Origin: an uncultured bacterium
GTDB lineage: Bacteria > Bacteroidota > Ignavibacteria > UBA10030 > BY39
Assembly: GCA_937967455.1 (NCBI GenBank)
Contig: CALCJK010000003.1
Coordinates: 1 to 64,000 of the forward strand
Direction of reading: 5' to 3'
Length of the DNA stretch: 64,000 nt
The position numbers and the translations under genes are program-made. The notes beneath the pieces were generated by a model. It worked only from the letters and a program-made list of their open reading frames with translations. It was not told where the DNA came from and ran no database searches. Below, piece after piece: positions 14,253-58,881 of this stretch (positions within the stretch are counted from its first letter, which is position 1; each line of letters opens with the position of its first letter).

Positions 14253-16005
14253 TCTTTCCAATCCCTCATTCTTTTTGATAATCGGAGCTATTCTATTATC
14301 AATGATTCCTAAAAATTTACGTTCATCATTCTTCCTGCTTGTTACACTGATCGGATTAATTTTAATTTGGACTTTACCTAATGGTTTATATTTTCATACA
14401 AAGTTTTTAGATTATGATTTGATATTATTGAATGTTGATCCATTATCCAGAATTTTTGCAACGATTTTTGCATTGATAACATTTCTTGGTGGAATTTATG
14501 CATTTCATATTAAAGATACATTACAACAGGTTTCAACTCTGATCTATAGTGCATCTGCAATTGGCGCTACCTTCGCAGGGGATTTTATTACATTATTTAT
14601 TTATTGGGAATTGATGGCAATATCATCAGTGATATTGGTATGGGCACGAAGAGATTCTCAATCCTGTAATGCTGGTTTTAGATATCTTTTTGTACATATT
14701 TTTGGTGGTAGTATTCTTCTGGCAGGAATTGTACTTCATATATTTGAGTCGAATTCAACTCTTGTAGTTGCACTAAGTTCCCGAAGTTCTATCGCAAATT
14801 GGTTGATACTGATAGGTTTTGGTTTAAATGCTGCTATTCCTCCTCTTAATGCCTGGTTGCCAGATGCCTATCCTAAAGCTTCAATAACTGGTGCAGTATT
14901 TATGAGCGCATTAACAACAAAAACTGCAGTTTATGCTCTGGCAAGAGTTTTCCCAGGATGGGAAATATTACTGATTCTTGGTACAATGATGACCGTGTTT
15001 GGTGTTGTTTATGCTTTACTCACAAATGATATCAGAGAATTATTAGCATATCATATCATAAGTCAAGTTGGTTATATGGTTGCTGGTGTTGGTATAGGTA
15101 CACAATTATCAATTAATGGTAGCACAGCTCATGCTTTTTCACATATTCTTTATAAAGCTCTTTTGTTTATGGGTGCCGGCGTTGTTATTTATTCGACTGG
15201 TACATCAAAATTGAGTCAACTTGGAGGTCTAATAAAATTATTACCCATAACTTTTATTCTCTATTTAATAGGTGGTTTTTCAATTTCTAGCGTTCCACTT
15301 TTTAATGGGTTTATAAGTAAATCGATCATTGTTCATGCTGCATTAGAAAAAGGAACAATCGTTTCTTCCTCGGAGATGAATGTCTTATTAATTGCAGTTT
15401 TTCTTATGAATCTCGCAATGATTGGAACTTTTTTGAGTACAACTTTAAAACTTCCTTATTTTGTTTGGTTCCATAAAAACGCACCAGATCAACAATTACA
15501 AAGTAATCCTGTACCTTTCAATATGCACTTGGGTATGGCTTTTACTGCTATATTGTGTATTATATTTGGTATAAAGCCTTCGTTGCTTTACAATTACCTG
15601 CCTTTTAATATGGAGTATCATCCGTTTGAGATAACTCACTTATCCGAAACTTTAGAAATATTGCTTGCCACATTTGTTATATTCTGGATATATAGGTTAA
15701 AGTTAAAACCAGAACCTTTAATTTTATTAGATTTTGATTGGTTTTATAGAAAACCAAAGAAGTATTTAAAGTTAGTGTTTATTGATTATATTTTAATTGT
15801 ATTTGATTTTACTGATAAAATTTTAAGAGAACTAATAGAAAAGTTGGTAACTTTCGGTAAGAATCCTGTCAGAATTTTTAATAATATCTTAATTACATCA
15901 CCTGAAATTCAGGAGTATGAACCAGATATATATAGGATTTCAACTGGTTTGATAATTAGTTTTATTCTTTTCGTTTTTCTGGGAATATTTTTAATGAATC
16001 TTTAG
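14245..16005 (+). CDS. MnhD-like antiporter subunit 3 (TM7 Lys replaced by Asn)
   Basis: Third D-type subunit, 586 residues, longer than its siblings because of a ~90-residue C-terminal extension ending in a last helix. Glu122 (IYWELMA) and Lys359 in TM12 (FISKSII) are conserved. At the TM7 lysine position there is Asn195 (GLNAAIPPLNAWLPDAY), and a lysine in TM8 (TTKTAVY) may compensate. ATG 14245 is preferred over ATG 14233 because AAGGG abuts 14233 directly, but either is possible. Its last 15 bases overlap the convergent dctM gene. Confidence 0.85.
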   Translation: MYNLSNPSFFLIIGAILLSMIPKNLRSSFFLLVTLIGLILIWTLPNGLYFHTKFLDYDLILLNVDPLSRIFATIFALITFLGGIYAFHIKDTLQQVSTLIYSASAIGATFAGDFITLFIYWELMAISSVILVWARRDSQSCNAGFRYLFVHIFGGSILLAGIVLHIFESNSTLVVALSSRSSIANWLILIGFGLNAAIPPLNAWLPDAYPKASITGAVFMSALTTKTAVYALARVFPGWEILLILGTMMTVFGVVYALLTNDIRELLAYHIISQVGYMVAGVGIGTQLSINGSTAHAFSHILYKALLFMGAGVVIYSTGTSKLSQLGGLIKLLPITFILYLIGGFSISSVPLFNGFISKSIIVHAALEKGTIVSSSEMNVLLIAVFLMNLAMIGTFLSTTLKLPYFVWFHKNAPDQQLQSNPVPFNMHLGMAFTAILCIIFGIKPSLLYNYLPFNMEYHPFEITHLSETLEILLATFVIFWIYRLKLKPEPLILLDFDWFYRKPKKYLKLVFIDYILIVFDFTDKILRELIEKLVTFGKNPVRIFNNILITSPEIQEYEPDIYRISTGLIISFILFVFLGIFLMNL

Positions 16006-17271
16006 TAAATTTACAAGAAATAAACTCAACTGTGGGATGTAGGTAACTAATATTAGAATGATAAGTCTTATTAAAATGAATGGTAGTGTTGATCGATAAA
16101 CTTGTGCTATTGGCTTTTCGAATCTATAGCTGGATATAAAAAGATTTAAACCAACAGGAGGAGTTACATAACCAATTTCAAGATTTACAAGGAAAATTAT
16201 TCCTAAATGAATTGGATCCACACCAAATGCTAAGGCAATCGGTATAATTAAAGGTACAACAACAATTGTTGCTGAAAAAATATCCATTAACATTCCAACT
16301 ATTAAAAGGAAAATATTTAGGAGAATTAAGAATAGCGTTTTGCTAGTGATGAATTCTCGTATTAGTTCAAAAAGCTTCATTGGGATTTCGGCATCTATGA
16401 GATAATTTGTTAAGCCGAGCGCAGTCCCGAGTATAATCAGTATCGCTCCCACTAGGGTCATGCTGTCCAGCATTATTTTTGGGACATTCTTAAAGATGTG
16501 TAGATCCTTATAAATAAATACTTCGACGAGGAATACATAAAATGCAGTAATTGCCGCTGCTTCAGTAACAGTAAATAGACCACCATAAATTCCCAGTATA
16601 ACAATAAAAGGAAGTGGAATTTCCCAGATTGCTTGTTTTACTGAAAGTTTTATGTTCTCGTAAGTGAATTTTGTTTTTTCAATCTGAATTTTTTGCCCAT
16701 GTTTAAAGCTATATATTGAAAGTGCACCAAGAAGTATAATGCCTGGTATGAAACCTGCTGCAAATAATTGATCGATATTAATTTTGGCAATCATTCCGTA
16801 TAGAATAATTGGTAAGCTGGGAGGAAACAACAAACCGAGCGAACCTGAAGTTGTAAGTAAACCAAGTGAAAATTTTTCTGGATAATTTTCTTTTAAAAGA
16901 ATTGGATATAATAATCCCCCAAGTGCTATAATAGTAACACCAGATGCTCCTGTGAAAGCTGTGAAGATTGCACATGATACGAGAGCAACAACTGCCAAAC
17001 CTCCAGGTAACCAGCCGATAATTGCCTTGGTAAGTTGAACAATTCTTTTGGGAGAATTACTCTCAGCTAAGAGATAACCTGCAAAAGTAAAAAGTGGAAT
17101 TGCAAGTAAAGTTGGGGAGTTCGCAAGTCTGTAAAGTTCAACAATAACAGCCGATGAATCGATTAATGCAGTATTAAAAGCCACCAGTGCAATTATACCA
17201 ATTATAATAAAAAGTGGCGTCCCAAATAGAGCTAGCAGCAGAATAAGTGTAATGAATATAAAGGTTTCCAT
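15991..17271 (-). CDS. dctM: TRAP transporter large permease (DctM)
   Basis: Main transmembrane subunit of a tripartite ATP-independent periplasmic transporter, 426 residues with about 12 helices. The family motifs are present, with GxxGSLGLLFPPSLPIILYG near residue 145 and a second LEIGYVTPPVGLNLF motif near residue 365. TRAP permeases normally couple uptake to a Na+ gradient. It is last in the tatT-dctP-dctQ-dctM operon, 7 bases after dctQ. The 3' end overlaps the convergent MnhD-like gene by 15 bases, with no terminator visible between them. Confidence 0.93.
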   Translation of the reverse strand: METFIFITLILLLALFGTPLFIIIGIIALVAFNTALIDSSAVIVELYRLANSPTLLAIPLFTFAGYLLAESNSPKRIVQLTKAIIGWLPGGLAVVALVSCAIFTAFTGASGVTIIALGGLLYPILLKENYPEKFSLGLLTTSGSLGLLFPPSLPIILYGMIAKINIDQLFAAGFIPGIILLGALSIYSFKHGQKIQIEKTKFTYENIKLSVKQAIWEIPLPFIVILGIYGGLFTVTEAAAITAFYVFLVEVFIYKDLHIFKNVPKIMLDSMTLVGAILIILGTALGLTNYLIDAEIPMKLFELIREFITSKTLFLILLNIFLLIVGMLMDIFSATIVVVPLIIPIALAFGVDPIHLGIIFLVNLEIGYVTPPVGLNLFISSYRFEKPIAQVYRSTLPFILIRLIILILVTYIPQLSLFLVNLLKIH

Positions 17272-17278
17272 ATGGGAC

Positions 17279-17785
17279 TTATTTTTTCCTGATTTCTGAG
17301 AATATTACAAAATTATTGATTGCTGAAATGATAAATCGGAAAAACATCAATGCGAAACCTACAGGAATGATTATCTGCATGTGGTAAGATTTTATTTCAA
17401 AGCTTGATATCGTGAATATCGTAGTCTGGGCGTCCAGTTCGTCAAAAATGAATTTTACTGATGCATAAAATAATAACAACGCAACAACTGCGGCAAAAAT
17501 TTGATTAATGATTTTGGATATGTGTTTATTCTTTTGTGATAAAAAACGACTCAATATATCAATATTAATGTGTTTATCATTTTGAGTTGCCAGTGAGGCA
17601 CCAAGGAATGCTATCCAGAGTACTAAGTGTCTTAAAAAAGGGTCAAGCCAAAGTATACCTGTATCAAAGAAATTTCTTAAAATTACTTGTAAAAAGGATA
17701 ATAAAACCATTAAACTTAAGATAAGGATCAGGATAAATTTTTCTGCATAAGAAATATATTTGCTTATCCTTAAGAGGAAAGTCAT
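17279..17785 (-). CDS. dctQ: TRAP transporter small permease (DctQ)
   Basis: A 168-residue, four-helix subunit that partners DctM. The segment FLRHLVLWIAFLGASLATQN, with W/F-L-G-A followed by the short polar N-D-K-H-I-N-I-D stretch, is typical of DctQ. It overlaps dctP by 4 bases and precedes dctM by 7. The N-terminus is charged and cytoplasmic. Confidence 0.9.
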   Translation of the reverse strand: MTFLLRISKYISYAEKFILILILSLMVLLSFLQVILRNFFDTGILWLDPFLRHLVLWIAFLGASLATQNDKHINIDILSRFLSQKNKHISKIINQIFAAVVALLLFYASVKFIFDELDAQTTIFTISSFEIKSYHMQIIIPVGFALMFFRFIISAINNFVIFSEIRKK

Positions 17786-18789
17786 TTTGTTGTATTATTC
17801 TGTGAGTTTCGGTAATCTATTAGTGCTTGTTCAATTCGGTTTAGGAATTCGGCTGAGTAGAGTTTATTAACAAGAGATTGTCTGGCTTTACGACCAATTT
17901 CTTCGTATTCAAGTATTTGTTTTTCAGATTGTGGGGAGTTAAAAATCAAACCCTGTTTTTTAAAGGTTTGTAAAGCTTTTTCGTTATCAATTCTGCTTAA
18001 TTCTGTAAGTTTCGTCATGTATTTTTTCCCGTTGCGTAAAAGTATTTCTTTTAAATCGGGAGGTAACTGATCATACATTTTTTTTGAAATTACAACAGCT
18101 CCACAAGCATCCGCAAGTGGAAGTGTAAAAATGTATTTAACCCGTGTCCACCACTGTAGACCCAGGGCTGCAAGTGGAGAGGTGTATACACCATCTATTA
18201 ATTTTGTTTGAAGTGAAGTTAACACATCTGTTACTGATAATGGTATAGGTGTAATCCCGAGTGATTTGAAAGTAGCTTCAGCAATAGGATCGCCTTCCCA
18301 TGCCCACATTTTAACATTTTTCATATCTTCTTTTTTAGTAACTGGTGTATTTGTAAATACATAAACAAATCCGACTTCTGCCCAGCCAAGTAGGATATAT
18401 CCACCTTGTTCAAAAGCTGTGTTAAATTCTTTATCAAATTTCTGATAAATGTAATCTACTTCATCATAGCCTCTAAATAAGAATGGAGAATCAAGTATAC
18501 GTACTTGTGGTGCTATTTCACCTATACCAACGCCAGTAATACCAGCGCTGTGTAGCTGACCTAATCGAATTTTTCTTAAAACATCTTTTTCATCACCCTG
18601 TACACCACCAGCGTAGATTTTAAAACCAAGCTTGCCATTGCTTTCTTTTCTGATTGCTGCATCATATTCTTTCATAATGTTCATCCAGGTAGTTCCATCA
18701 GGTGCTAAAGTAGCAAATTTAATAATATACTGTTGAGAATAGCTAATTGAGCTAATCAAAATCAGAAAAAGTAATTTTATAATATTCAA
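17782..18789 (-). CDS. dctP: TRAP transporter substrate-binding protein (DctP/TatP type)
   Basis: Periplasmic solute receptor, 335 residues, with a signal peptide ending ISYSQ. The mature start IIKFATLAPDGTTW is typical of the DctP family. Around residue 163 the segment KMWAWEGDPIAEATF replaces the usual arginine-bearing strand that grips the substrate carboxylate in sialic-acid and dicarboxylate receptors, so the ligand may not be a simple organic acid. The LQTKLIDGVYTSPLAAL segment is conserved. Pairing with TatT next door suggests the TPAT variant described in Treponema, in which the receptor joins a TPR lipoprotein. Confidence 0.9.
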   Translation of the reverse strand: MNIIKLLFLILISSISYSQQYIIKFATLAPDGTTWMNIMKEYDAAIRKESNGKLGFKIYAGGVQGDEKDVLRKIRLGQLHSAGITGVGIGEIAPQVRILDSPFLFRGYDEVDYIYQKFDKEFNTAFEQGGYILLGWAEVGFVYVFTNTPVTKKEDMKNVKMWAWEGDPIAEATFKSLGITPIPLSVTDVLTSLQTKLIDGVYTSPLAALGLQWWTRVKYIFTLPLADACGAVVISKKMYDQLPPDLKEILLRNGKKYMTKLTELSRIDNEKALQTFKKQGLIFNSPQSEKQILEYEEIGRKARQSLVNKLYSAEFLNRIEQALIDYRNSQNNTTK

Positions 18790-18801
18790 GAATGGTCTCC
18801 T

Positions 18802-19653
18802 TTAAAATAGTTCATCAAATTTGTTTCTTAATATTTCAGCTTTTTTCTTTGCAATTGCATTAGAGAGTTTAGCTTCAGGCAGAATATCCAAATTGGTCTC
18901 ATCGATTTTACTAAGAAGGTCCTGGTATAATACTGGATCTTGGATTTGCACTGCATAGGTTTTAGCATAATAAACATAAGTCATTAAAAATTTACCGGAA
19001 TTGATAGATAGACATTTTTCGAAATGTTTTTTTGATTCTTCTGGATTTCCACCAAATATTTTTGGGCGACCCCCATAAAGTGCACCTAAAAAGAAATGTG
19101 CCCCACCGTAATAATATTTTTCATCAACTTTGATGATGTATTTCATTATAGCTTCTACTTTTGGAAGGTCTGCCAATGCATCAGGTTGTGTTAAGTTTAA
19201 ATTAATATAACTTCCCCAAGCTACTGCAGTCCAGAAAAGTGCTGGTATGTCTGATTTACCAAAAGAGAGGAGGGAATTTTCAAAACTATTGAGATTTGCA
19301 TTATCGTCGAAATGCTTGTTTTTTTTTAGTAATTTAATTCCATATTCTTTAGCTCTTAAATAAAATGTTTTGGCTCTATCGACATCAATGTCTTCTACAA
19401 ATCCAAGTGCATAACTTGAATATCCAGTGCAGAGCAGTTGTAATATTTCGGAATTATTTGGATCTGATTTAATCATTGCTTCAAGTAGTTTTAGATTTGA
19501 AGCTATACTTTTTTCTGCAAGCTCGAGGTCAGATTCTTCGTTTAATACCGCAAATCCGTTGTTCATAATATCACCCATCGAACGAACGGCTAATTTTTGA
19601 ATGCTACAACCTGAAATTAAAATTATTAATAAAATTGATAATTTGATTCTCAT
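18802..19653 (-). CDS. tatT: TRAP-associated TatT lipoprotein
   Basis: A 283-residue lipoprotein (lipobox LISGCS) with helical TPR-like repeats, including the PALFWTAVAWGSYINL segment of the TatT family. In Treponema TatT forms a trimer that binds the TRAP receptor and has been suggested to help pass hydrophobic ligands. Here it is the first gene of the TRAP operon, 12 bases ahead of dctP. A strong promoter lies 12 bases upstream of the start. The ligand is unknown. Confidence 0.85.
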   Translation of the reverse strand: MRIKLSILLIILISGCSIQKLAVRSMGDIMNNGFAVLNEESDLELAEKSIASNLKLLEAMIKSDPNNSEILQLLCTGYSSYALGFVEDIDVDRAKTFYLRAKEYGIKLLKKNKHFDDNANLNSFENSLLSFGKSDIPALFWTAVAWGSYINLNLTQPDALADLPKVEAIMKYIIKVDEKYYYGGAHFFLGALYGGRPKIFGGNPEESKKHFEKCLSINSGKFLMTYVYYAKTYAVQIQDPVLYQDLLSKIDETNLDILPEAKLSNAIAKKKAEILRNKFDELF

Positions 19654-19789: not shown

Positions 19790-19912
19790 ATGAATAAAAA
19801 TATTATTGATTTTAAAGATAGAATATTCAATCTATCAATGTATGTAGCTGGAGTATTATTTTTATTAATTGTCGTAATTTTTGCCGTAAGGATGCTGATA
19901 CAAACTTTTTAG
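19790..19912 (+). CDS. Possible 40-residue single-helix membrane protein
   Basis: An ATG-initiated frame encodes a 40-residue product. It has a charged N-terminus (KNIIDFKDRIFN) followed by one clean hydrophobic helix (YVAGVLFLLIVVIFAV) and a short basic end. The layout is that of genuine small membrane proteins. The frame runs 4 bases into the 3' end of the convergent large gene. No convincing ribosome binding site or promoter is seen, so it remains a candidate. The rest of this gap (19697-19789) shows nothing else. Confidence 0.35.
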   Translation: MNKNIIDFKDRIFNLSMYVAGVLFLLIVVIFAVRMLIQTF

Positions 19913-22900
19913 AAATCAGTACCCAGTGAAATGTAGTATTTTGGTCTTGAAGTTGCCTGTAAATCAAACCACCAAGCGACATCCAATTTTACCAAAAATC
20001 CTAAAAATATGAATCTTATACCGTAGCCTGTGCCACCCAGCAAGTCTTTCATATATGTGCCATTTTCGTTTTTAGCAAAGGCTTGAAAATCTTTTTTACT
20101 ATACCAGGCAGATCCTAAATCAAGGAAGAACACACCCGTAAGAGTTTGCCAGAAAACTGGCAATGGTCCTGCTGATAAATAACCGAGTAGAGGGAATCTA
20201 AATTCTGTGTTGATTAAAAAATATTTTGTTCCAATTTTAGTATTGTAAATATATCCACGAAGTGGAACACCTGAAGTCAAAAATAGAAAGTCCTCTGCAT
20301 TCTCGAAAGGAATGCTGTTATTTGTGAATTTGCGATTAATCCAATTATCGACTCCACCAACGATAAATCTTTGTGGATCTTTTCCATAACTACCACCAAA
20401 TGCAAATCTCTGAACAAGAATGTAATTTTTCCATATTTTAAAATAAGTGCGATAATCTGCTAAAATTGAAACGAAACTTAATCCATCGGAGGTAACTTTT
20501 GGAGTGCCATAAGTCGTGAAATTGTACCTGGTTCCATTAGCGGGTGATGTGTAACCCCACAAAGTATTATCATGAATATAACTTAAAGAAGTAAGCAATA
20601 AGTTTCTTCTCTGAATTGGTTCGAATGGATTATCTAAATTTTCTTTTGTTATAACGAAGTAATTTAATCCAAGATCAATTCTGTTAAATTTTGTAATTGG
20701 ATATGATCCACCAACCGATGCACCATAAGTTCTAAATCTGTATAGATCTCCATAATATGAATCACCCAAAATTATGAATCTTGCACTATGAAAAGCTTGG
20801 AACATATAATCAATTCGATGTGGTAGATTATAGTAAGCAAGAATATAATCGCTATTTTTTAAATCACCATTTAAATTTGTTAAGAAGAAAATTTGATGAT
20901 CACCCATCATATCACTAAAAGCCATTATGGTAGAACCAAGGACACCATAATATGTATTGAAACCTGCAGTTCCATATATTATATCGGGAGAAAAATTTAG
21001 TTTGTATTTATTAATAATGTAATTTCCTTCTTCATCCAGATTATTTAGCAAGGTAAATGTAGTTGTCGTATCTATTTTATTCACTAAATTGGTTTCAGGA
21101 ATTGAAGGTGTGAATATATAGTTTCTGAAATCTACTTTTATATCTTTTCCGTATAATTCAGTAGTGTCTTCAATAATTGTGGATATGAGTATGTCGTCAC
21201 TAACTTTTAATGTGTCTGATTTTTTCTCTAATTCAGATATATGGTATTTTTGTGATTTTTGTTTTATGAATTCAGTTGGTTCTAAATTTTCGGTTATAAG
21301 TTTTCTTTCGAGAGGTGTACGCATCAGAAATATATCAAATCCACCCTTTATTAGTGAGGCAAAGGTTAATTTATTTTTATCCTTTGTAATGGAAATTTGA
21401 TAAACACCTGAAATAGAGTTTGTTAATGGTATATATTTTTTTGTATCAAGATTTAATGAATAAATATTGTTAATTCCATTTAAATCTGAAACGAAAAGTA
21501 ATGTGTTTGAATCGGCTGCAACGGGGGAGGTTTCATCACTTCCTGGTATTGTTAGAACACTTACTATTTGCTTTGATTCAATTTGAATACAAAATAAATC
21601 CTTATCAAAATCTTTCACATTTTCAATATTATGCTTATAAAATGGTTTATCTAATGTAAAATTGTGTCGATCAGATATGAAATAAATAGATTTCCCATCA
21701 GATGAAAATGCTGGATCTGAATCGCTATAGATATCATTAGTTAGATTTTCTGCTTTGTCTGTGTTGAGATCATAAATGTAAATATCGGATTGTTTATGGT
21801 TATGTCCAACAAATGCAAGTTTATCACCGTAAGGTGACCAGTCTATTGAGCTAATTCCGTCAAGATTTATTTTAAGTTTATTTTGCTTTCCTGTGGCTAT
21901 ATCAATCAATATGATTGCATCCTGTCCCTTGCTTTTTGCTGATAATGCAATCTGTTTTCCATCAGGAGACCATGCCATGCCCGGAGTTAGTAGATGTAAT
22001 TCCTCAAAATCTGCTGTTCTTTGACCTTTTACAAGTTTCTTTTCAATCTTACCATCTATTGCATCCATAATGAAAACGTCAAAGTAATCATCCCGATTTG
22101 AAATAAAAGCGATTCTATCCCCTTGAGGAGAAATAGTTGGACTTGTGTTATAAAAGCTACCATCTTTTGTATGGTTAGTTAATTGTCGTGCAAAATCAGT
22201 GGGGTCTTCTCTCTTTGCAATGTCAGGCCAGTACTGAACTTTCATATCCTTTTGCCACTTTTCATTTAACTCTTTTAAACCAAGTCCAATTGTTGATCTG
22301 AAACCCTGTTCAACACTTCTGGTGGCTTTAATTCTATTTAATATTTCACCAATTTTTTGTTCGCCATATTTATTTGCAATCCAGTTCCATATTGCCTGAC
22401 CTCCTCTATATGCAAAATATCCATAAAGGTAATCTATTGGTGGGAGATTTTCATGTATAACAGCATCTCGAATAAACATATCTGAATTTACATCCCACTT
22501 GAGGGCTTCATATTCTGAGAGTCCTTCATTAAACCACAGTGGAAGTTGTAACATAATATTATTTGCTATAATAGATTGCAATGAACCACCATAGAACATA
22601 TCATTAATAACTGCATGAACAAGTTCATGATGAATTACATGCCTGAATTTCTTATAATCACCTTCAAATGGAATCACAATACGATTTTTAAACAATTCTG
22701 TAACACCACCTATACCTTCCTCAAGGTATTCGTATATAACATTTGTTTGTTGAAAGTCGTTATGCGAATTGTAAACAATAATTGGGATTCTATTTGTTAT
22801 CTGATAACGAAAGTTTTTACTAATTGAACGATATGCTGCTTCAGCCGCATCTGCTGTAAATTCAGCAATTGAATAGCCATCATCAAAAAAGTAAACATCA

Positions 22901-23034
22901 AAATGTGAAGATTGTATGAAGTATGTATTAAATTTTTTGTATTGTACTTTATTCTTCCCAAAAATGTTCTCTTGTGAATAAACATTGATTGAGAATATTA
23001 ATATTAAAATAAAATAAAATGTTCTGTATTTCAT
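19909..23034 (-). CDS. Metallopeptidase-MA / TolB-propeller / outer-membrane-barrel fusion
   Basis: A 1041-residue exported protein with three parts. Residues ~1-250 follow a signal peptide (INVYSQ) and carry the zincin motif HHELVHAV near residue 135 with NEGLSEYEAL about 30 residues later, as in peptidase-MA-like gluzincins. Residues ~280-580 contain PD40/TolB-type propeller repeats (ISPQGDRIAFISNRDD, SWSPYGDKLAFVG, FSSDGKSIYFISD). Residues ~670-1041 resemble an Omp85/surface-antigen barrel, with FIVGGVDNW and GYGIRF near the end and a terminal F. It overlaps the upstream methyltransferase gene by 4 bases. Its substrate is unknown; an outer-membrane protease with the barrel as anchor is inferred. 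Confidence 0.75.
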   Translation of the reverse strand: MKYRTFYFILILIFSINVYSQENIFGKNKVQYKKFNTYFIQSSHFDVYFFDDGYSIAEFTADAAEAAYRSISKNFRYQITNRIPIIVYNSHNDFQQTNVIYEYLEEGIGGVTELFKNRIVIPFEGDYKKFRHVIHHELVHAVINDMFYGGSLQSIIANNIMLQLPLWFNEGLSEYEALKWDVNSDMFIRDAVIHENLPPIDYLYGYFAYRGGQAIWNWIANKYGEQKIGEILNRIKATRSVEQGFRSTIGLGLKELNEKWQKDMKVQYWPDIAKREDPTDFARQLTNHTKDGSFYNTSPTISPQGDRIAFISNRDDYFDVFIMDAIDGKIEKKLVKGQRTADFEELHLLTPGMAWSPDGKQIALSAKSKGQDAIILIDIATGKQNKLKINLDGISSIDWSPYGDKLAFVGHNHKQSDIYIYDLNTDKAENLTNDIYSDSDPAFSSDGKSIYFISDRHNFTLDKPFYKHNIENVKDFDKDLFCIQIESKQIVSVLTIPGSDETSPVAADSNTLLFVSDLNGINNIYSLNLDTKKYIPLTNSISGVYQISITKDKNKLTFASLIKGGFDIFLMRTPLERKLITENLEPTEFIKQKSQKYHISELEKKSDTLKVSDDILISTIIEDTTELYGKDIKVDFRNYIFTPSIPETNLVNKIDTTTTFTLLNNLDEEGNYIINKYKLNFSPDIIYGTAGFNTYYGVLGSTIMAFSDMMGDHQIFFLTNLNGDLKNSDYILAYYNLPHRIDYMFQAFHSARFIILGDSYYGDLYRFRTYGASVGGSYPITKFNRIDLGLNYFVITKENLDNPFEPIQRRNLLLTSLSYIHDNTLWGYTSPANGTRYNFTTYGTPKVTSDGLSFVSILADYRTYFKIWKNYILVQRFAFGGSYGKDPQRFIVGGVDNWINRKFTNNSIPFENAEDFLFLTSGVPLRGYIYNTKIGTKYFLINTEFRFPLLGYLSAGPLPVFWQTLTGVFFLDLGSAWYSKKDFQAFAKNENGTYMKDLLGGTGYGIRFIFLGFLVKLDVAWWFDLQATSRPKYYISLGTDF

Positions 23035-23840
23035 TTTACACCTAATTTTTTTGTTTTATAATTTGCTAAGATAATAGCACATGCTGATGCTACATTCAAA
23101 GATTCAGCTTTTCCATATCTTGGTATCGTAATTTTTTCATCAGATGCCTGAATTAATTCACCTGAGATGCCATCAGCTTCACTACCAAATATAATCAATG
23201 TCTTATTATGAAATATGGTTTTTTCCAAACTTATTCCATCTAAGGTAGTAGAATATATTTTATAACCATTGTTCCTGAGATTATTTATTACTGACAAAAG
23301 CTCTAAATTATCAATAATTGTTAAATGGAAAATTGAACCCATTGAAGCCCGTAAAACTTTAGGATTGTACAAGTCAGCGCTTTCCTTGCTTATCAATACT
23401 GCATCTACTGCAAACCAGTCACATATTCTAAGTATCGTTCCTAAATTTCCAGGATCAGATATCCTATCAAGTGCTACCATTACCGATGATTGGATATTTT
23501 TGTTACAGATATGGTTTAAATTTGAAGATTTTTTTTTAATGACTGCCATAATACCTTGAGATGTGACTGTATCGCACAATTTTTCAAACTCTTTGGTTTT
23601 TACTAAAAAGCAAGGGATTTCTTTCTTATTTGCTATTAGTATTTGATTTTTTATCTGGGAATCGGTTTCGGAGTTATCCCTTATTAGTAAATATTCAATT
23701 TGCCAGTCGGAATTTAAAGCTTCTGAAACTAATCTTTTACCTTCAATTATGAATTTTTTTTCTAAATCTCTGTATTTTTTTGCTTTTAGCTTTGATATAT
23801 TAGTTATTATTGATCTGGATATTTTTGCAACTTGCATCAT
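23031..23840 (-). CDS. RNA 2'-O-methyltransferase, TrmH/SpoU family
   Basis: A 269-residue SAM-dependent methyltransferase of rRNA or tRNA ribose. The N-terminal ~95 residues form the RNA-binding substrate domain. The SpoU knot domain follows with DRISDPGNLGTILRICDWF near residue 130, FGSEADGISGEL near 217 and IPRYGKAESLNVASACAII near the C-terminus. The target (such as 23S rRNA G2251) cannot be fixed from sequence. A promoter lies just upstream, and the stop overlaps the start of the large fusion gene, so both are read from one transcript. Confidence 0.9.
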   Translation of the reverse strand: MMQVAKISRSIITNISKLKAKKYRDLEKKFIIEGKRLVSEALNSDWQIEYLLIRDNSETDSQIKNQILIANKKEIPCFLVKTKEFEKLCDTVTSQGIMAVIKKKSSNLNHICNKNIQSSVMVALDRISDPGNLGTILRICDWFAVDAVLISKESADLYNPKVLRASMGSIFHLTIIDNLELLSVINNLRNNGYKIYSTTLDGISLEKTIFHNKTLIIFGSEADGISGELIQASDEKITIPRYGKAESLNVASACAIILANYKTKKLGVK

Positions 23841-23951: not shown

Positions 23952-24962
23952 ATGCAAATACCAGAAAAAAGGCTTGAAGAAATTTTCAACAATTTTAAAA
24001 ATAAGAATATTGGAATAATTGGTGATTTAATGTTAGATCGGTATTTGTGGGGAAATATTAGTCGTATTTCTCCGGAGGCACCTGTTCCAATAGTTGAAAT
24101 TAATAATGAATCCAATAGATTAGGAGGTGCTGCTAATGTAGCTAACAATATAAAATCTTTAGGTGGCATAGCACAAATTTTGGGAGTTATTGGTGATGAT
24201 GAAGACGGTAAAATTTTGTATAAAATTTTGAAAAATACAGGTTTTGAAATTGAAGGAGTGGTTTTTGATCGAACAAGACCTACAACCGTAAAGACAAGAG
24301 TTATTGCGCACAAGCAACATGTTGTGCGTGTAGATAAGGAAGATAGAAGGGATATATCAGATGAGATTGAAGAGAAAATTTTAGATAATTTAAGAAACAA
24401 AATTAAAAATCTTCATGCTGTTATTATTGAAGATTACAACAAGGGTTTAATAACAAAAAGTTTAATATATGGTATAATCGAAATTTGCAATAAAAATGGA
24501 GTAATAGTAAATGTAGATCCAAAGTATAATAATTTTTTTGAGTTTAAAAATGTAACAGTATTTAAGCCCAATCGCAAAGAAACTGAAGATGCACTTGGGA
24601 TTAAATTGGCCGATGAAGAATCCTATAAACAAGCTACTGAGAGGATCTCTGAACTTTTAAATGCAAATGCTGTAATTATTACACGTGGTGAAGAGGGAAT
24701 GAGCATCAGGATTAAACATGATGAGTTTTATACCATACCAACTACTGCTCGTAAGGTTGCAGATGTATCTGGTGCTGGAGATACAGTAATTTCAACTCTC
24801 ACTATCGCAATGGCAGCAGGGGCAAACATCCACGAAGCTGCAATTATGGCAAACACAGCAGGTGGAATTGTATGTGGCGAAGTGGGTATTGTTCCAATTG
24901 ATAAAAATGAGCTCTATGAGGTTTTACTGGAAGATATGAATCATAGAAAGAGAAGAAAATGA
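23952..24962 (+). CDS. rfaE1: D-glycero-beta-D-manno-heptose-7-phosphate kinase (RfaE domain I)
   Basis: Carbohydrate kinase of the PfkB/ribokinase fold, 336 residues, which phosphorylates heptose 7-phosphate on the way to ADP-heptose for the LPS core. Conserved stretches are GDLMLDRYLWG near residue 22, RLGGAANVANNI near 57, and the C-terminal anion hole and catalytic base DVSGAGDTVISTL near 272. In E. coli this domain is fused to the adenylyltransferase as HldE; here the two are separate and 8 bases apart. Confidence 0.93.
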   Translation: MQIPEKRLEEIFNNFKNKNIGIIGDLMLDRYLWGNISRISPEAPVPIVEINNESNRLGGAANVANNIKSLGGIAQILGVIGDDEDGKILYKILKNTGFEIEGVVFDRTRPTTVKTRVIAHKQHVVRVDKEDRRDISDEIEEKILDNLRNKIKNLHAVIIEDYNKGLITKSLIYGIIEICNKNGVIVNVDPKYNNFFEFKNVTVFKPNRKETEDALGIKLADEESYKQATERISELLNANAVIITRGEEGMSIRIKHDEFYTIPTTARKVADVSGAGDTVISTLTIAMAAGANIHEAAIMANTAGGIVCGEVGIVPIDKNELYEVLLEDMNHRKRRK

Positions 24963-24970
24963 GATGATTT

Positions 24971-25462
24971 ATGGGACAAATTGTAGAAATAAAAGAAATT
25001 AAAATATTAAGTGAAAAATTCAGAAAAAATAACCAAAAAATTGTTTTTACAAATGGCGTCTTTGATATTTTACACCGTGGTCATATAGAGTATTTGATAA
25101 AAGCAAAAAACTTGGGGGATATATTAATTGTTGGAATCAATTCTGACGACTCTGTTAAAAAAATTAAAGGTAACAAGAGACCTATTGTCCAACAAGAAGA
25201 TAGAGCTTATTTACTTTCTAATATCTCTTGTGTTGATTATGTTTGTATCTTTAATGAAGAAACACCATTAAATCTGATTAGTGAAATAATTCCTGATGTT
25301 TTAGTAAAAGGTGCAGATTGGGATAAAAATAATATAGTCGGAAAGGATATTGTTGAAAGTCATGGGGGTAAGGTGGAAACTATAGAATTCATACCACAGC
25401 GCTCAACAAGTGACATAATTGATATAATAATCAAGAGATATTGTAAACAGATAGATAAATGA
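24971..25462 (+). CDS. rfaE2: Heptose-1-phosphate adenylyltransferase (RfaE domain II)
   Basis: A 163-residue nucleotidyltransferase that joins AMP to heptose 1-phosphate. It has the TNGVFDILHRGHIEYL motif near residue 27 (HxGH-type nucleotide site) and RSTSDIIDII near the C-terminus. It follows the kinase gene directly and completes the split HldE pair. Four bases overlap with the TamB-like gene, linking LPS precursor supply to envelope assembly in one operon. Confidence 0.93.
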   Translation: MGQIVEIKEIKILSEKFRKNNQKIVFTNGVFDILHRGHIEYLIKAKNLGDILIVGINSDDSVKKIKGNKRPIVQQEDRAYLLSNISCVDYVCIFNEETPLNLISEIIPDVLVKGADWDKNNIVGKDIVESHGGKVETIEFIPQRSTSDIIDIIIKRYCKQIDK

Positions 25463-28400
25463 TCAAAAAGATTCTTAAAATATTAGCATATATATTAGTA
25501 ATATTTTGTTTGGTTGTAATAGGTATTTTTGGTTTTACTCAATCAAAATTTTTTAAGGAACGCTTGAGGGTTATAATCATTTCCGAGCTTTCACAATCCT
25601 TAAAATCAGAATTTTATCTGGGGGAAATTAAAGGAAATTTTATTACAGGTTTTTCTATTGATTCACTTTCGATATATAACGAAAAAGAAAAATTTTTATC
25701 CATTAAAGGTATAAAACTTTCTCATGATCCACTAACAATAGCCGGCAAAAAGATAACATTAAAGAAAATATCGATCGATAATATTGATTTAAATATAGTT
25801 CGGGGAACAGACTCTATCTGGAATTTTAAAAATATATTGCAACCCAGTTCTAAAGAATCGAAACCATTAAACTGGACAATTGACATTCGAGATTTGAAAA
25901 TAAATTCTGGACGGTTTTCTGTTTACGATTCATTAAAGAACTTATATATTCATCCACACGATTCCAACTCAAGATATTTTGATTATAAACATTTTTATAT
26001 TCAGAATTTCAAATTAGCCCTCTCAGCTCAAATAAAAGATAAAGATTATAAGCTAAAAGTTAAGGAAATTCAATTTTCCATACCATCGATAAATTTTAAT
26101 TTAAATACGCTTTCTACTGATATAATATTAAATAAAAAGAACATAGAAGTTAGTAACCTTTTAATAGAAACTGATAACACATCTCTAAGAGCTGAGGCTT
26201 CATTGAAAGAATTAAATCTTTTTGAGAAACTTGATCTCAAGGAATTTGAAGAAAAACCAGTTAAATTGAAATTGTTATCAAACAGATTTGATCTAAATGA
26301 GTTTAAGAAGTTTTTGCCTGCTGTTTATTTTTTAAATGGGTTGGTCTATGCAGATATTGAAGCAGAAGGGAATTTTGGCAATGTAAAAGTAAATCATATC
26401 AATCTGAAAACAAATAACTCTTATTTACAATTAAGTGGCAATATTCTGAATTTACACCATCCTCAAAATCTTTTTCTGGATGTGAAAATCTTTAATTCAC
26501 AGGTTACGCCAAGCGATGTTAGTAAATTGTTACCTGTTTTCAAGATACCTAAATTTCAAGCAGTAAAAACTGTTTTTTTGAACGCAACATACAACGGAAC
26601 TCCTTTAGATTTCTCATCAAAAATTGATATATATTCAAGTGATTTGGGTAATGCGACCGCCTTTTTGAAACTTAATCTCCAGGACACTATTATGCGATAT
26701 AGAGCAGAATTCAATACGAAACATCTGGATTTAGATTCCTTTACACAGAACAAAATTTTCAAAACAAAGCTAAATTGTTCAGGTTTTATTGAAGGTGAGG
26801 GAATAAAACTTAATAATTTGAATTCTAAATTCTCACTTAAGATTGATACATCTGTTGTAAACGACATAAATTACGAAACTGTAAATGTCGATATCGGATT
26901 AAGAAATCAAGTGATGGATGCGAACATTTCAATTAGTTCAGATGCAGGATTTGCAACAATTAAATCCAAATTCAATTTCATGAATTCTGAAAACCCAATA
27001 TATGAATTCAACACAGGTTTCTCGAAATTTAACATTGGAAAAATTATCAATGATGCTCATTGGTTAAGTGATATGAATATTAATATTAATGCATTAATAT
27101 CAGGAGCCGATTTAGATAAGATGAATGGATCGGCAGAACTTCGTATTTTACATTCGGTAATTGCAAATAAAATATTAGATGAGGAGACAATTAATTTAAG
27201 ATTGGATCAGACCAGACCAGTTGACAGAGAACTATCTATTCGTTCCAAAAACTTTGATCTTGCTATAAATGGTAATTTTAGTTTAATTTCAACATTTAAA
27301 ATATTTGAAAATATATTTAGTAACGTATCAACAGAAATAAATAAGAAGTTGGGAAAAACTGATTTAGTATATCTAGGAACTGATAAAACTGAGATAAAAG
27401 AAAAGTATGAAGATTTTGAGTTTTCCTATCATTTTAAGATTACAGATATAAATTTATTTACCAAGCTATTTTTAAATATTCCTTTCAATTTTAATGGTGA
27501 TATATCTGGAGAATTTAAATATGAACAGAATCAATTAATTGGGAAATCATATTTTCAGATTATCGACTATTTTGTAGGAACAGAGTCAAAGGGTATCCTT
27601 ATAAGTAATGCGAATCTAAACATAATAATAGGTTCAATAAGCAACCAGAATGTATTAGAAAATTCTAAAATTCAAATAAAATTTTCAGCTGAACAGATTA
27701 ATTTTGGTAAAATAAAATTATATGATGCCAGTTTAGATTTTAATTACATAAATTCAGTGGGATTTTTTGCTCTTAAAAACAGGTTTGAATGGGGTATGTT
27801 ATTTGATATAAAGATGACATTGTACAACAGAAAAGATTATTTTCAATTCGATATGACTCAGTGTAATTTAATCTTAAAAGATTATCATGTTCGTGCAGAT
27901 ACCGTTACAACCTTAGCATTGGATAAAAATGGTTTTAAAATAGATAATTTGCGTTTTATAAGTTCATTGGGAGAAAAATTGTATTTTAATGGATCATTGG
28001 ATGATAAAAACAATTTAAGTATTAATACACAAATAGATAGGTTATTAATTGAAAACATAAAATTATTCAAAGCAAATAATTCAACAGTGAGTAAAATAAG
28101 GGGTAATACATTTTTAAGACTTAATATAAACGGTACGCTGGAACAGCCATTATTTACCTGTCAGTTTACTCTTGATTCAATAATGTATAAAAATAGTAAT
28201 TTTGGTAAAATAAGTGGTTTGCTTACATATAAAGAAAAACAATTAAGTCTTTCTATCTCGGCTGTCAACCCTGTAAAAGATAATGAGAAAATGTTATCTG
28301 TTTTTGGCTTTTTGCCAGTTGACCTATCTTTAACTCCAGTTGAAAACAGATTTCCAGAAGAAGATGTTTCAATAATAATGAAAACAGATGGATTCCCGTT

Positions 28401-29952
28401 AGAAATTTTCAATCCATTAATACCTTTTATTGATGACTTATCTGGAATATTGGTTTGTGATTTAAATATTGGTGGAACTACCATGAATCCGATTTATTTT
28501 GGTAAAATTAATTTTGATGATGTTAGATTTCAACTATTATCAAATTATATATATTATAATTTAAATGGTTCTCTTTTAGCGGATAAAGATAGAATTTATT
28601 TTTCTGATTTTTATGTTAAGAATGAGAAATCGGATTTTAGTGCTGGAATTGTAAATATATCTGGATACTTTACCATTCGAGAATATAAATTTGAAAAGTT
28701 CGATTTAAATGCTAAGGGCCAATTGTTGTTATTGAAGGAAGGTGTACGAAAGAAGATGCAGAATGTATACGGTAAATTAATTGCAACCACGGAAGAAGAA
28801 GGAATTAGTTTTAAAGGATCTATACAAAGTTCAAATATTGCTGGGACAATTGTTATTAAAGAAGCTAACTTGGTTTTTCCCCCAGCTCAAACACAGACCT
28901 ATGTTGAAGGAGATAATTTAATCAAATATGTTGCAATAAATGATACAATGATTGTTTCAGCTCAAAAAGATATTAAAACAGAGTTTTATTATCCTGATGC
29001 AATTAGTGGAAATAAATATTGGGTAGAAGAAACTCCAACCAGTAACAGATTTTTGGATGGTTTAACTTATGATTTGGTTTTGTATACCAAAGGGACAACC
29101 AATATAAGGATGATTTTTAATCCAGCCACGAATGAGGAGTTATATGCAGAATTAGATGGCAGAGTTAACTTACAAAGGTTCTCGAATAAGAATTATTTTA
29201 TAGGTGAGATTTTAATTTCGGAGAGGTCTTATTATAATTTCTTCAAACGCTTTGAGGCTTCTGGAAAATTAAAATTTATTGGTGATCCCAATAATCCAGA
29301 ATTAGAAATAAACGCTACATATACAGGGATACGACAGATAGCTGGAGCTTTGCAAGATACTGCTTTAATTGAACAAAAAGTAGTTATTGGACTTGATATT
29401 ACAGGTACCCGTTTAGAACCGAAATTAAAAATGTCGATAAAAATTGATGACAAAGATTATAATGATGTAATACAAAATGGTGATCTACAGAGTGATGCTA
29501 TCTCATTTTTGTTTACTAATAAGTTTAGAGATGACTTATCTACAAGGGAAAAATCTGATATCATATCAGGTATAGGTACAACTGCAGGTAAATCTCTAAT
29601 AGCTGGAGCAACATCTACAATGTTGTCGGGAATTCTAACAGATTTTTTGAGGAAAGAATTTGGCTTTATACGTTCTGCAGAAGTAACATATGCTGGAGGT
29701 AGTTTGCAGGAGTCAGCTGATCTTAGACTTAGTGGACAGATATTTAATGCTTACTGGCGTTTTGGAGGAAGAATTTTTGATGACATAAATAATGCAAATG
29801 TTAGCTTTATACTCAATTTTGGTGATATTTTTGAATCACAGAAGGTAAAAAATTTTTACCTTGAACTTGAAAGAAGAGTAGATGGTAGGGAATATGGTCT
29901 GGACAGGAAATTAACTAATAGTGCAAAAATTTATTACAAATGGTCGTTTTAA
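25459..29952 (+). CDS. TamB-like AsmA-superfamily envelope protein
   Basis: A 1497-residue inner-membrane-anchored periplasmic protein. One N-terminal helix (residues ~8-27) precedes a long run of beta-rich repeats. The C-terminal ~350 residues form the TamB/DUF490 domain, with GEILISERSYYNFFKRF, then the region around SDAISFLFTNKF, and an aromatic end KWSF. Such proteins bridge the envelope as hydrophobic grooves that move phospholipids or help outer-membrane protein assembly. It sits between LPS heptose genes and rnr. No tamA-like partner is adjacent. The length is within the usual range (1100-1600). Confidence 0.85.
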   Translation: MIKKILKILAYILVIFCLVVIGIFGFTQSKFFKERLRVIIISELSQSLKSEFYLGEIKGNFITGFSIDSLSIYNEKEKFLSIKGIKLSHDPLTIAGKKITLKKISIDNIDLNIVRGTDSIWNFKNILQPSSKESKPLNWTIDIRDLKINSGRFSVYDSLKNLYIHPHDSNSRYFDYKHFYIQNFKLALSAQIKDKDYKLKVKEIQFSIPSINFNLNTLSTDIILNKKNIEVSNLLIETDNTSLRAEASLKELNLFEKLDLKEFEEKPVKLKLLSNRFDLNEFKKFLPAVYFLNGLVYADIEAEGNFGNVKVNHINLKTNNSYLQLSGNILNLHHPQNLFLDVKIFNSQVTPSDVSKLLPVFKIPKFQAVKTVFLNATYNGTPLDFSSKIDIYSSDLGNATAFLKLNLQDTIMRYRAEFNTKHLDLDSFTQNKIFKTKLNCSGFIEGEGIKLNNLNSKFSLKIDTSVVNDINYETVNVDIGLRNQVMDANISISSDAGFATIKSKFNFMNSENPIYEFNTGFSKFNIGKIINDAHWLSDMNININALISGADLDKMNGSAELRILHSVIANKILDEETINLRLDQTRPVDRELSIRSKNFDLAINGNFSLISTFKIFENIFSNVSTEINKKLGKTDLVYLGTDKTEIKEKYEDFEFSYHFKITDINLFTKLFLNIPFNFNGDISGEFKYEQNQLIGKSYFQIIDYFVGTESKGILISNANLNIIIGSISNQNVLENSKIQIKFSAEQINFGKIKLYDASLDFNYINSVGFFALKNRFEWGMLFDIKMTLYNRKDYFQFDMTQCNLILKDYHVRADTVTTLALDKNGFKIDNLRFISSLGEKLYFNGSLDDKNNLSINTQIDRLLIENIKLFKANNSTVSKIRGNTFLRLNINGTLEQPLFTCQFTLDSIMYKNSNFGKISGLLTYKEKQLSLSISAVNPVKDNEKMLSVFGFLPVDLSLTPVENRFPEEDVSIIMKTDGFPLEIFNPLIPFIDDLSGILVCDLNIGGTTMNPIYFGKINFDDVRFQLLSNYIYYNLNGSLLADKDRIYFSDFYVKNEKSDFSAGIVNISGYFTIREYKFEKFDLNAKGQLLLLKEGVRKKMQNVYGKLIATTEEEGISFKGSIQSSNIAGTIVIKEANLVFPPAQTQTYVEGDNLIKYVAINDTMIVSAQKDIKTEFYYPDAISGNKYWVEETPTSNRFLDGLTYDLVLYTKGTTNIRMIFNPATNEELYAELDGRVNLQRFSNKNYFIGEILISERSYYNFFKRFEASGKLKFIGDPNNPELEINATYTGIRQIAGALQDTALIEQKVVIGLDITGTRLEPKLKMSIKIDDKDYNDVIQNGDLQSDAISFLFTNKFRDDLSTREKSDIISGIGTTAGKSLIAGATSTMLSGILTDFLRKEFGFIRSAEVTYAGGSLQESADLRLSGQIFNAYWRFGGRIFDDINNANVSFILNFGDIFESQKVKNFYLELERRVDGREYGLDRKLTNSAKIYYKWSF

Positions 29953-29955
29953 AAT

Positions 29956-32076
29956 ATGGCAAACACTTTAATCGAAAACAAACTTCTTGAATTTTTTATT
30001 AAAAACCCTAACTCCGCTTTCAGATTAAATCAAATTGCAAGAAGGATATCGACTAAAGAAGAAGTTGATATTGCTTTGTTGAGAAGCACTTTACAAGGAC
30101 TGGTGAAACAAAAAAAAATTAAACAGGTGTCCAGAAAAAAATATGGTTATGCAACACCTCCCAAAAGTTCTCGTCTTAAAGGTGTTTTTACAAGGTTGAA
30201 ATCTGGAGCTGGTATTGTGAAATTGCTTCCACCTAACGAAGGTACAGTTTTTATCCCCTCAATGTTCACCAATACTGCTTTAGATGAGGATCTGGTTCTT
30301 GTTGCTCTCTTTCCAGTTAACAAAGATAATGATGTTGATGTTGAACTTACTGGAGAAGTAACGGAAATCCTTAAAAGAGGTAAAAAGGTTTATACTGGAA
30401 TATTTCAAAAGAGTAAAAACTTTTTCTTCATTATTCCGGATACATTGAATATTGGTATGGATATCTTTATCCCACATGGTAAAACTAATGGTGCGAGACC
30501 AGATGAAAAAGTTGCATTTGTTATTGAAGAGTGGAAAAATATAAATATTCACCCTGAAGGAAAAGTAATAAACAGAATTGGGAAATCTGGTGAAATAAAT
30601 AGTGAATTGCTTTCTTTAATTTATTCTTATGGGTTAATTTCTGAATTTCCCAGAAAAGTGATGGATGAAGCTAATAAATTCTCGGATCAGATTGAAAAAA
30701 GCGAAATTGAAAATAGAATTGATCTTCGAGAAATTGTATGCTTTACAATCGATCCTGAAGATGCAAAGGATTTTGATGATGCAGTATCAATTGAACAAAT
30801 TGATGGAAATACATATGAATTAGGGATCCATATTGCCGATGTAAGCCATTATGTGAAAGAATCCTCCGAATTAGATAAAGAAGCATATAAACGTGGTACA
30901 AGTGTTTATTTTGCTGATAGTGTTATACCTATGCTTCCAGAAAAATTATCCAATAACATTTGTAGCTTAATACCAAATCGGGATAGGCTTGCATATTCGG
31001 TAATTATAGAAATAACAAAAGATGCAGTTGTAAAAAAATACAGAATCTTTAAAAGTATTATCAAAAGTAAAATGAGATTTACTTATGAAGAAGTGCAGGA
31101 TATTATAGATTCAAAACAGGGCCCTTTTGTAGAAAAACTGCTTTCTATGCACGAGTTAAGTAAAAAATTGTATATCAAAAGAAGGAAAATGGGAAGTATA
31201 GATTTTGAAACATCTGAAATAAAGTTTAAATTCGACAAGGATAAAAAACCAGTTGAAATTTATAAAAAGGAAAGAAAAGATTCAAACAGAATGATTGAAG
31301 AATTTATGTTATTAGCAAACAAAGTTATTGCAGAACATATTGCTAAAAGTAAAAAACCTTTTATATATAGGGTCCACGATAAACCTGAACCTACAAAAAT
31401 AAAAGAAGTTGCAGAATTTGTTTCTCAATTTGGTTATGATTTAAAAATTGATAGAGTTATTAATTCAAAAAGTATCCAAAAATTACTCGATCAGGTAAAA
31501 GGTAAAGAGGAAGAAGCTGTGATTAATGACATAACAATTAGAGCAATGGCAAAGGCAATTTATTCTAATGAGAATATTGGACATTTTGGATTAGGTTTTA
31601 AGTATTATACACATTTTACATCTCCAATAAGAAGATATCCTGATCTTGTAGTTCATCGTCTTTTGAATGAATATTCACAGGGAGTATCCAGCAAGAGAAT
31701 TCAGCAACTGAATGATCTTTTACCTGATATTTGTGAGCAATCAACTATTCGCGAGAGAATTGCTATGGATGCTGAGAGAGATTCGGTAAAAGTATTGCAA
31801 ATTGAGTATATGAAACGTCATATAGGAGATGTCTATAAAGCTGTAATTTCAGGAATTTTGAATTTTGGAATTTTCGTTGAAATAATTGATTTGCTGGTTG
31901 AAGGGTTAGTTAGAATAAGAGATTTAAAGGATGATTATTATGTTTATGATGAAAAAAATTATTGTTTCATAGGAAGGAAAACTAAAAAAAGATATAGATT
32001 AGGTGACAGGGTAAAAGTACAGGTTGTCAGAGTGGATTTAAAGGATAAGGAAATAGATTTTAAAATAATTGACTAA
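29956..32076 (+). CDS. rnr: Ribonuclease R
   Basis: A 706-residue processive 3'-5' exoribonuclease of the RNB family. A winged-helix-like region occupies residues 1-70, cold-shock domains follow to ~240, and the RNB core starts near 265 with the metal-binding TIDPEDAKDFDDAVSI motif. HFTSPIRRYPDLVVHRLL lies near residue 552, and a C-terminal S1 domain spans ~620-706. It starts 3 bases after the TamB-like gene. RNase II was rejected because of the N-terminal helix-turn-helix and the length. Confidence 0.93.
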   Translation: MANTLIENKLLEFFIKNPNSAFRLNQIARRISTKEEVDIALLRSTLQGLVKQKKIKQVSRKKYGYATPPKSSRLKGVFTRLKSGAGIVKLLPPNEGTVFIPSMFTNTALDEDLVLVALFPVNKDNDVDVELTGEVTEILKRGKKVYTGIFQKSKNFFFIIPDTLNIGMDIFIPHGKTNGARPDEKVAFVIEEWKNINIHPEGKVINRIGKSGEINSELLSLIYSYGLISEFPRKVMDEANKFSDQIEKSEIENRIDLREIVCFTIDPEDAKDFDDAVSIEQIDGNTYELGIHIADVSHYVKESSELDKEAYKRGTSVYFADSVIPMLPEKLSNNICSLIPNRDRLAYSVIIEITKDAVVKKYRIFKSIIKSKMRFTYEEVQDIIDSKQGPFVEKLLSMHELSKKLYIKRRKMGSIDFETSEIKFKFDKDKKPVEIYKKERKDSNRMIEEFMLLANKVIAEHIAKSKKPFIYRVHDKPEPTKIKEVAEFVSQFGYDLKIDRVINSKSIQKLLDQVKGKEEEAVINDITIRAMAKAIYSNENIGHFGLGFKYYTHFTSPIRRYPDLVVHRLLNEYSQGVSSKRIQQLNDLLPDICEQSTIRERIAMDAERDSVKVLQIEYMKRHIGDVYKAVISGILNFGIFVEIIDLLVEGLVRIRDLKDDYYVYDEKNYCFIGRKTKKRYRLGDRVKVQVVRVDLKDKEIDFKIID

Positions 32077-49559: not shown

Positions 49560-49577
49560 AATGTTATTAATTTGAAA

Positions 49578-54486: not shown

Positions 54487-54535
54487 AAGACCTTAAATCT
54501 ATACTTATTGATATTGAATGTTATTAGCTTATGTC

Positions 54536-54889
54536 TCATTTTCCATCTTTGCAACAAGCTGGAAGTTGATTATATGAATCTCGATTTCGTGGGATATCAT
54601 CTGCATCATAACCTGCCTGAGATATCAGATTTTTAATACTATCTGCGTTTATTGATTCATTTAGATATTCCACAAATGTTAATTTCCTGTTTAAATCAAC
54701 TTCAACACTCTTAATTGCATCATTACTCAATAGTGTCTTTTGAATAGTGTTTACACACATATTACACATTACTGAAGGTGTATGGATCTGAACTTTTTTT
54801 AAACCTATTATTTCACTTTCGTTATTTTTTTTTGCTGAACATCCATTTATAATAAAAAGAACAGTAATTATGATAATAAATTTATTCAT
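54536..54889 (-). CDS. HMA-domain lipoprotein, copper chaperone-like
   Basis: A 117-residue lipoprotein (lipobox FIINGCS). The mature part is a ferredoxin-like HMA domain in which CNMC (VMCNMCVNTIQKTLL) stands in for the usual CxxC loop near residue 41. A second cysteine pair, PACCKDG, closes the protein. A membrane-anchored, extracytoplasmic HMA protein is unusual, as most chaperones of this family are cytoplasmic. Genomic context (CusA-CusB-CopA) suggests periplasmic Cu/Ag or Hg-type metal capture. Confidence 0.8.
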   Translation of the reverse strand: MNKFIIIITVLFIINGCSAKKNNESEIIGLKKVQIHTPSVMCNMCVNTIQKTLLSNDAIKSVEVDLNRKLTFVEYLNESINADSIKNLISQAGYDADDIPRNRDSYNQLPACCKDGK

Positions 54890-54905
54890 TTTGATTTATC
54901 CATTT

Positions 54906-55292: not shown

Positions 55293-55354
55293 TTTATTAC
55301 TCCTTTGTTATTGGTTTTATTGTTAATTATAATGCTTTTTTACGCATAATTCAA

Positions 55355-58693: not shown

Positions 58694-58881
58694 CTTAGTA
58701 TCAAAGCTCCTATATCGATTTGCAAATGATTTAAAAAGCTACCAAAGAAAAATACTATGGTCTTGATACTTTGATTGGTGCTTGCTTGTGAATTTATCAC
58801 CTGAGTGTTAAAAAAGGAAAACAATATTATACTAAGATTCACTAAATTTTTTTTTGAAATCATATTTGTATATTTATTCAT
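58690..58881 (-). CDS. Possible small exported protein between cusB and cusA
   Basis: A 63-codon frame that starts 8 bases inside the cusB end and stops in an ATGA overlap with the cusA start, the arrangement expected for a translated, coupled gene. The product has a signal-peptide-like N-terminus (LVNLSIILFSFFNTQVINSQ) and a short hydrophobic tail. It has no recognisable domain or metal motif. It could be a degenerate leftover of a larger gene, so confidence is low. Confidence 0.35.
   Translation of the reverse strand: MNKYTNMISKKNLVNLSIILFSFFNTQVINSQASTNQSIKTIVFFFGSFLNHLQIDIGALILR

Follow-up and report, generated by a model that had tools for sequence, protein, structure and literature searches.

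We describe a protein from an uncultured member of the Ignavibacteria (Bacteroidota) in which, according to domain searches and structure prediction, a gluzincin peptidase domain and a TolB-like propeller precede an Omp85 barrel in the absence of any POTRA domain. We tentatively propose, giving the idea slightly less than an even chance, that this protease-bearing Omp85 works with TamB in the assembly or lipid supply of the outer membrane. The subfamily to which it belongs was found in the majority of the genomes sampled from the phylum, often near tamB, and represents a testable candidate for the outer-membrane partner of TamB where the canonical TamA or TamL is absent. Moreover, those lineages in which the protease appears to have been lost and the scaffold kept constitute a natural experiment that separates the catalytic role from the role in assembly. 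The window to which all positions refer is the whole stretch of 64,000 nucleotides that was analyzed.

Table 1. Features of the gene, its product and its surroundings in the window; the positions of HELVH, E170, FGKNKVQY and PLRGY were verified in the DNA
Feature	Positions	Strand	Basis
Whole gene (1041 aa: signal peptide, zincin, propeller, linker, Omp85 barrel)	19909..23034	-	ORF, domain searches, model
Signal peptide, residues 1-21	22972..23034	-	end estimated from sequence
FGKNKVQY, residues 25-32, near mature N-terminus	22939..22962	-	read back from DNA
Gluzincin (Peptidase MA) domain, residues 38-281	22192..22923	-	PF13485, 4e-14; model
HELVH zinc-binding motif, residues 136-140	22615..22629	-	verified in DNA
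E170, putative third zinc ligand, in LWFNEG	22525..22527	-	role assigned from gluzincin fold
TolB-like six-bladed propeller, residues 295-572	21319..22152	-	Pfam, NCBIfam, model
Linker, residues 573-676, poorly conserved, without POTRA	21007..21318	-	conservation, model
16-strand Omp85 barrel, residues 681-1041, C-terminal Phe	19912..20994	-	family profile, model, Foldseek
PLRGY, the Omp85 loop-6 (V/L)RGF/Y motif	20251..20265	-	verified in DNA
SpoU-type RNA methylase, 4-nt overlap of its stop with the start of the gene	23031..23840	-	domain search
Two hldE-type heptose genes	23952..25462	+	domain searches
tamB	25459..29952	+	PF04357, E 1.2e-20 and 2.8e-20; conserved neighbor in relatives
rnr (RNase R type)	29956..32076	+	RNB, 7e-121
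TRAP transporter cluster (DctM, DctQ, DctP) and TRAP T-component (TAtT) gene, directly downstream	15991-19653

Domain architecture and known relatives

Inspection of the signal peptide revealed no lipobox cysteine. The FGKNKVQY motif that follows it is directly preceded by a hydrophobic stretch in the relatives too and, in the form FGKN[KR]VQY, is among the best-conserved elements of the family, pseudoproteases included; the AlphaFold2 model is of low confidence at this site. The zincin domain matches Peptidase_MA_2 over residues 73-264 (E 4e-14, Pfam) and is helical in the full-length model. When modeled alone (pLDDT 85), it matches the catalytic domains of M9 collagenases and M1 aminopeptidases (best match about 1e-4), with which it shares the gluzincin fold and an HExxH motif with a downstream Glu, but the identity in these structural matches is just about 10-16% and the partner domains differ. 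By sequence and model, the domain is thus a gluzincin, and peptidase activity can be predicted for it; H136, E137 and H140 are invariant in 81 core catalytic sequences.

The propeller is matched by PD40 (5e-16, Pfam) and by the NCBIfam TolB model (6e-36), exhibits about six four-stranded blades (counted from the listed elements of the AlphaFold2 model), and is superimposed on TolB by Foldseek (5e-11). A six-bladed propeller is common to both proteins; however, TolB is a soluble subunit of Tol-Pal, which has an N-terminal domain of its own and lacks a barrel, and the whole protein scores 124 bits, below the cut-off of 343 for the TolB equivalog. In the linker, pLDDT is low over residues 598-663.

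The sequence of the protein alone yields no barrel match in Pfam. Nonetheless, of 24 C-terminal regions taken from the family, 16 match PF01103 (best 9e-15), and a profile made from such regions retrieves BamA from the PDB from E 2.7e-6, the sole non-BamA match being one unrelated chain at E 0.47. In the full-length AlphaFold2 model (pLDDT 78, pTM 0.76), built from a 24-row alignment, 16 barrel strands can be counted from the listed elements, and PLRGY sits in the long loop that connects strand 11 with strand 12, which makes the protein a member of the Omp85 superfamily; R926 of this loop is invariant in the core sequence set. Foldseek aligns the modeled barrel with BamA (6e-10) and TamA (5e-9); its TamA/TamL scores are weak. 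A Pfam scan matched no POTRA in the protein, which a strict definition of Omp85 demanding at least one POTRA would leave out, but POTRA-less subfamilies are admitted within the superfamily (PMC4104836).

The sequence-only reading had given the coordinates and length of this open reading frame exactly and had proposed a three-part chain, and all three parts are borne out by Pfam/NCBIfam, the family profile, AlphaFold2 and Foldseek: the HELVH zincin by the Peptidase_MA_2 match, E170 and the M9/M1-like fold, the propeller by the PD40 and TolB matches, and the barrel by full-length structure prediction, in which 16 barrel strands are present.

The propeller-Omp85 class as such is known. In the WD40-Omp85 subfamily, described in 2014 (Heinz and Lithgow, PMC4104836), a TolB-like propeller precedes a POTRA-less Omp85 barrel, and by this order of domains our protein is, on sequence and model, a member. 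The available text of that paper mentions neither a zincin ahead of the propeller nor linkage to tamB, and in the literature searched (mostly open-access journal papers) we found no description of the zincin-propeller-Omp85 order, of the zincin loss or of the tamB linkage. Another source names those subfamilies of Omp85 that carry metalloprotease and WD40-like domains as not well characterized (PMC11116518). The literature found agrees with the earlier statement that no functional characterization was known. PlpD and the patatin-Omp85 proteins likewise carry an enzyme domain N-terminal to an Omp85 barrel, but theirs is a patatin lipase accompanied by POTRA rather than a zincin and a propeller. 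The TAM system (TamA or TamL with TamB) shares with our protein the Omp85 barrel and the frequent linkage to tamB, found in many, not all, genomes; on the other hand, our protein lacks the POTRAs that define TamA and TamL and the lipoprotein signal of TamL, and possesses the extra zincin and propeller. Two further candidates were rejected: Metallo-Omp85, as the Pfam scan found Peptidase_MA_2 instead of PF00149, and the Flavobacterium BAM subunits BamG, H, M and P, which are different proteins, with no metalloprotease, propeller or TolB in the available text of PMC12611786. The genome of the window also encodes a 900-aa patatin-POTRA-Omp85 protein of the PlpD type (L156:1125-3827), followed by a gene for a BatA/VWA protein.

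Distribution and decay of the zinc site

Matches at 1e-10 were obtained in 273 of the 297 sampled genomes of the phylum; they are full length in most families and short or restricted to the propeller in several others. A scan of genome contigs yielded 27 loci from Ignavibacteria, other Bacteroidota, Zixibacteriota, Marinimicrobia, Krumholzibacteriota and Aminicenantes, together with a single record from Chitinophaga. Relatives occur in four phyla besides Bacteroidota, the coverage of which corresponds to the genomes reached through these loci. The three-part order, for which the sequence-only reading had recommended a search, is conserved full length in dozens of genomes and therefore is not due to chance. 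Two more proteins with a zincin, a propeller and a barrel-like C-terminus are encoded in the genome of the window. A paralogue of 937 aa with zincin and propeller (L032:2611-5424) exhibits FGRNKVQY and HELVH, and is adjoined by a gene for a BamB-like PQQ propeller (L032:5412-6578).

H136, E137, H140 and E170 are all kept in 95 of 112 aligned sequences. The other 17, none of which retains H136 or H140, form two separate starred groups in the tree: one of fifteen sequences, the Chitinophaga locus included, and one of two sequences from another family of the class to which the window belongs. Because this tree was built rapidly, gave composition warnings and contains long branches, two changes are the fewest that the starred branches force; we infer at least two losses of the zinc site, with the direction of change deduced from the zincin fold and not from the tree. 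The 17 pseudoproteases keep G26, N28, Q31, Trp167, several propeller residues, the RG of loop 6 (R926) and the barrel glycines. Since FGKN[KR]VQY, the propeller and the barrel were retained in spite of the loss of the zinc site, the protein is not conserved for its catalysis alone. Loss of the zinc ligands in homologues, which the sequence-only reading had named as evidence against itself, is thus borne out in part, in two branches. Its suggestion of proteolysis tied to an outer-membrane channel is only partly supported: it accords with the 95 sequences that have all the ligands and is weakened by these branches, which keep the N-terminal motif, propeller and barrel. Several pseudoprotease loci (L029:5279-5974, L192-L195, L197, L199) have in common a neighboring gene for a protein of about 231 aa, which by eye resembles MBL-fold hydrolases.

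Genomic neighborhood

Among 54 loci from related genomes, tamB and rnr are each found near the gene at 22, while the next commonest neighbor is found at 9; the contrast with all other neighbors served as the control, and the counts are not independent because the genomes are related. Usually the three lie on the same strand in the order tamB-rnr-gene, separated by less than about 230 nt and with rnr in the middle in most linked relatives, and this order extends over Ignavibacteria and four further families of the phylum. At a Krumholzibacteria locus, tamB (PF04357, 7e-24) alone directly precedes the gene, ending about 150 nt upstream. Many genomes retain the gene without an adjacent tamB, among them all nine pseudoprotease genomes for which wide flanks were inspected and those with the Zixibacteria, Marinimicrobia and Aminicenantes loci.

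In the window, tamB (the sole match in the genome to PF04357, a model that misses some TamB relatives) lies 2.4 kb from the gene on the opposite strand. The plus strand carries hldE-hldE-tamB-rnr, and the gene is situated on the minus strand just past hldE, an arrangement suggestive of a move from the end of this cluster; hldE genes are found near tamB in five relatives as well. At one related locus (L025) a POTRA-Omp85 gene flanks tamB on its other side, and the genome of the window encodes several further Omp85 proteins, one of which is TamL-like, scores below the TamL cut-off and is encoded on a different contig; TamB may therefore have more than one partner. In other bacteria TamB is encoded together with TamA, TamL or BamA (PMC4494059), and the linkage to tamB, which the sequence-only reading had not brought up, points to envelope biogenesis. 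The idea that TamL replaces the catalytic role carries little weight: the seven genomes with TamL above the cut-off all encode pseudoproteases, but they come from a single branch and hence are not independent. The SpoU methylase was rejected as a functional partner, as it adjoins the gene in the nearest relative only, and so were the downstream TRAP genes, which are common to few relatives.

Possible function and alternatives

The N-terminal domains of Omp85 proteins face the periplasm. In PlpD, an enzyme-bearing Omp85 protein, the enzyme domain was once thought to be secreted and was shown to be periplasmic (PMC11116518). By virtue of this topology and precedent, the zincin and propeller probably reside on the periplasmic (inner) side of the outer membrane, which narrows the earlier view that they are held at this membrane on an unknown side. 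The long, poorly ordered linker ahead of the barrel might be taken to suggest a surface protease, with both domains exported through the barrel in the manner of autotransporters, but the same topology and precedent, as well as the resemblance of the propeller to the periplasmic TolB, render this highly improbable.

We propose that the protein, after export by its signal peptide and insertion into the outer membrane, would serve as a barrel-based assembly factor with the propeller and gluzincin in place of POTRA domains. Probably it either forms the outer-membrane end of the TamB bridge or cooperates with that end, and thereby assists the assembly of barrel proteins or the supply of lipids. Partners or substrates would be bound by the propeller, and stalled substrates may be trimmed or cleared by the zincin, by analogy with BepA, a periplasmic HExxH protease of E. 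coli that is tied to outer-membrane protein assembly and probably acts on such substrates; BepA, unlike our protein, is a soluble M48 protease with TPRs and has no barrel fused to it. The zinc site would have decayed in a branch of the phylum and in an additional family, where the scaffold role remained. The PlpD precedent, the co-encoding of TamB with Omp85 proteins, the linkage to tamB and the existence of pseudoprotease branches together suggest a periplasm-facing factor for assembly or lipid supply in which the protease is an accessory dispensable in some lineages, and the building of the outer membrane looks likelier than plain protein digestion. Whereas the domain matches, the modeled fold, the loss of zinc ligands and the proximity to tamB are observed, we infer the topology, the substrates, the peptidase activity and a physical partnership with TamB. 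Against such a partnership speak the many genomes in which tamB is not adjacent, the opposite strands in the window, the fact that linkage does not equal interaction, the other Omp85 proteins that could be TamB's partner, and the POTRAs of TamA and TamL, which our protein lacks.

It is tempting to go further and consider a new type of TAM, where TamB docks on a POTRA-less Omp85, the propeller and protease replace the POTRAs, proteolysis is coupled to barrel assembly or lipid transfer, and the protease later became a pseudoenzyme in the branch with a canonical TamL; we regard this scenario as possible but somewhat doubtful. Alternatively, the protein could be a periplasmic quality-control or processing protease for which the barrel chiefly provides anchorage, with the linkage to tamB reflecting shared envelope regulation only. 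The strict invariance of the zinc ligands in the catalytic branch and the M9/M1-like gluzincin fold are in line with this possibility; nonetheless, a mere anchor would not need the RGY of loop 6, and two lineages without the zinc site keep the N-terminal motif as well as the residues that are hallmarks of Omp85, hence we consider it unlikely. A second BAM-like insertase, namely a BamA-BamB-like fusion that serves some of the barrels without involvement of TamB, would agree with the fusion proposed for the WD40-Omp85 class (PMC4104836), with the closeness of the barrel to BamA and with the BamB-like gene beside the L032 paralogue. However, no neighbors are as frequent as tamB and rnr, and no bamA/bamD linkage was seen among the conserved neighbors, making such an insertase quite unlikely.

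Elsewhere in the window, an M28 peptidase with a PDZ domain is encoded beside a separate PD40 propeller protein (47754-50633), and a likely copper or heavy-metal export cluster (52063-60385) comprises a P-type ATPase with YHS and HMA domains, an AcrB-type pump and an HlyD protein with a cupredoxin domain.
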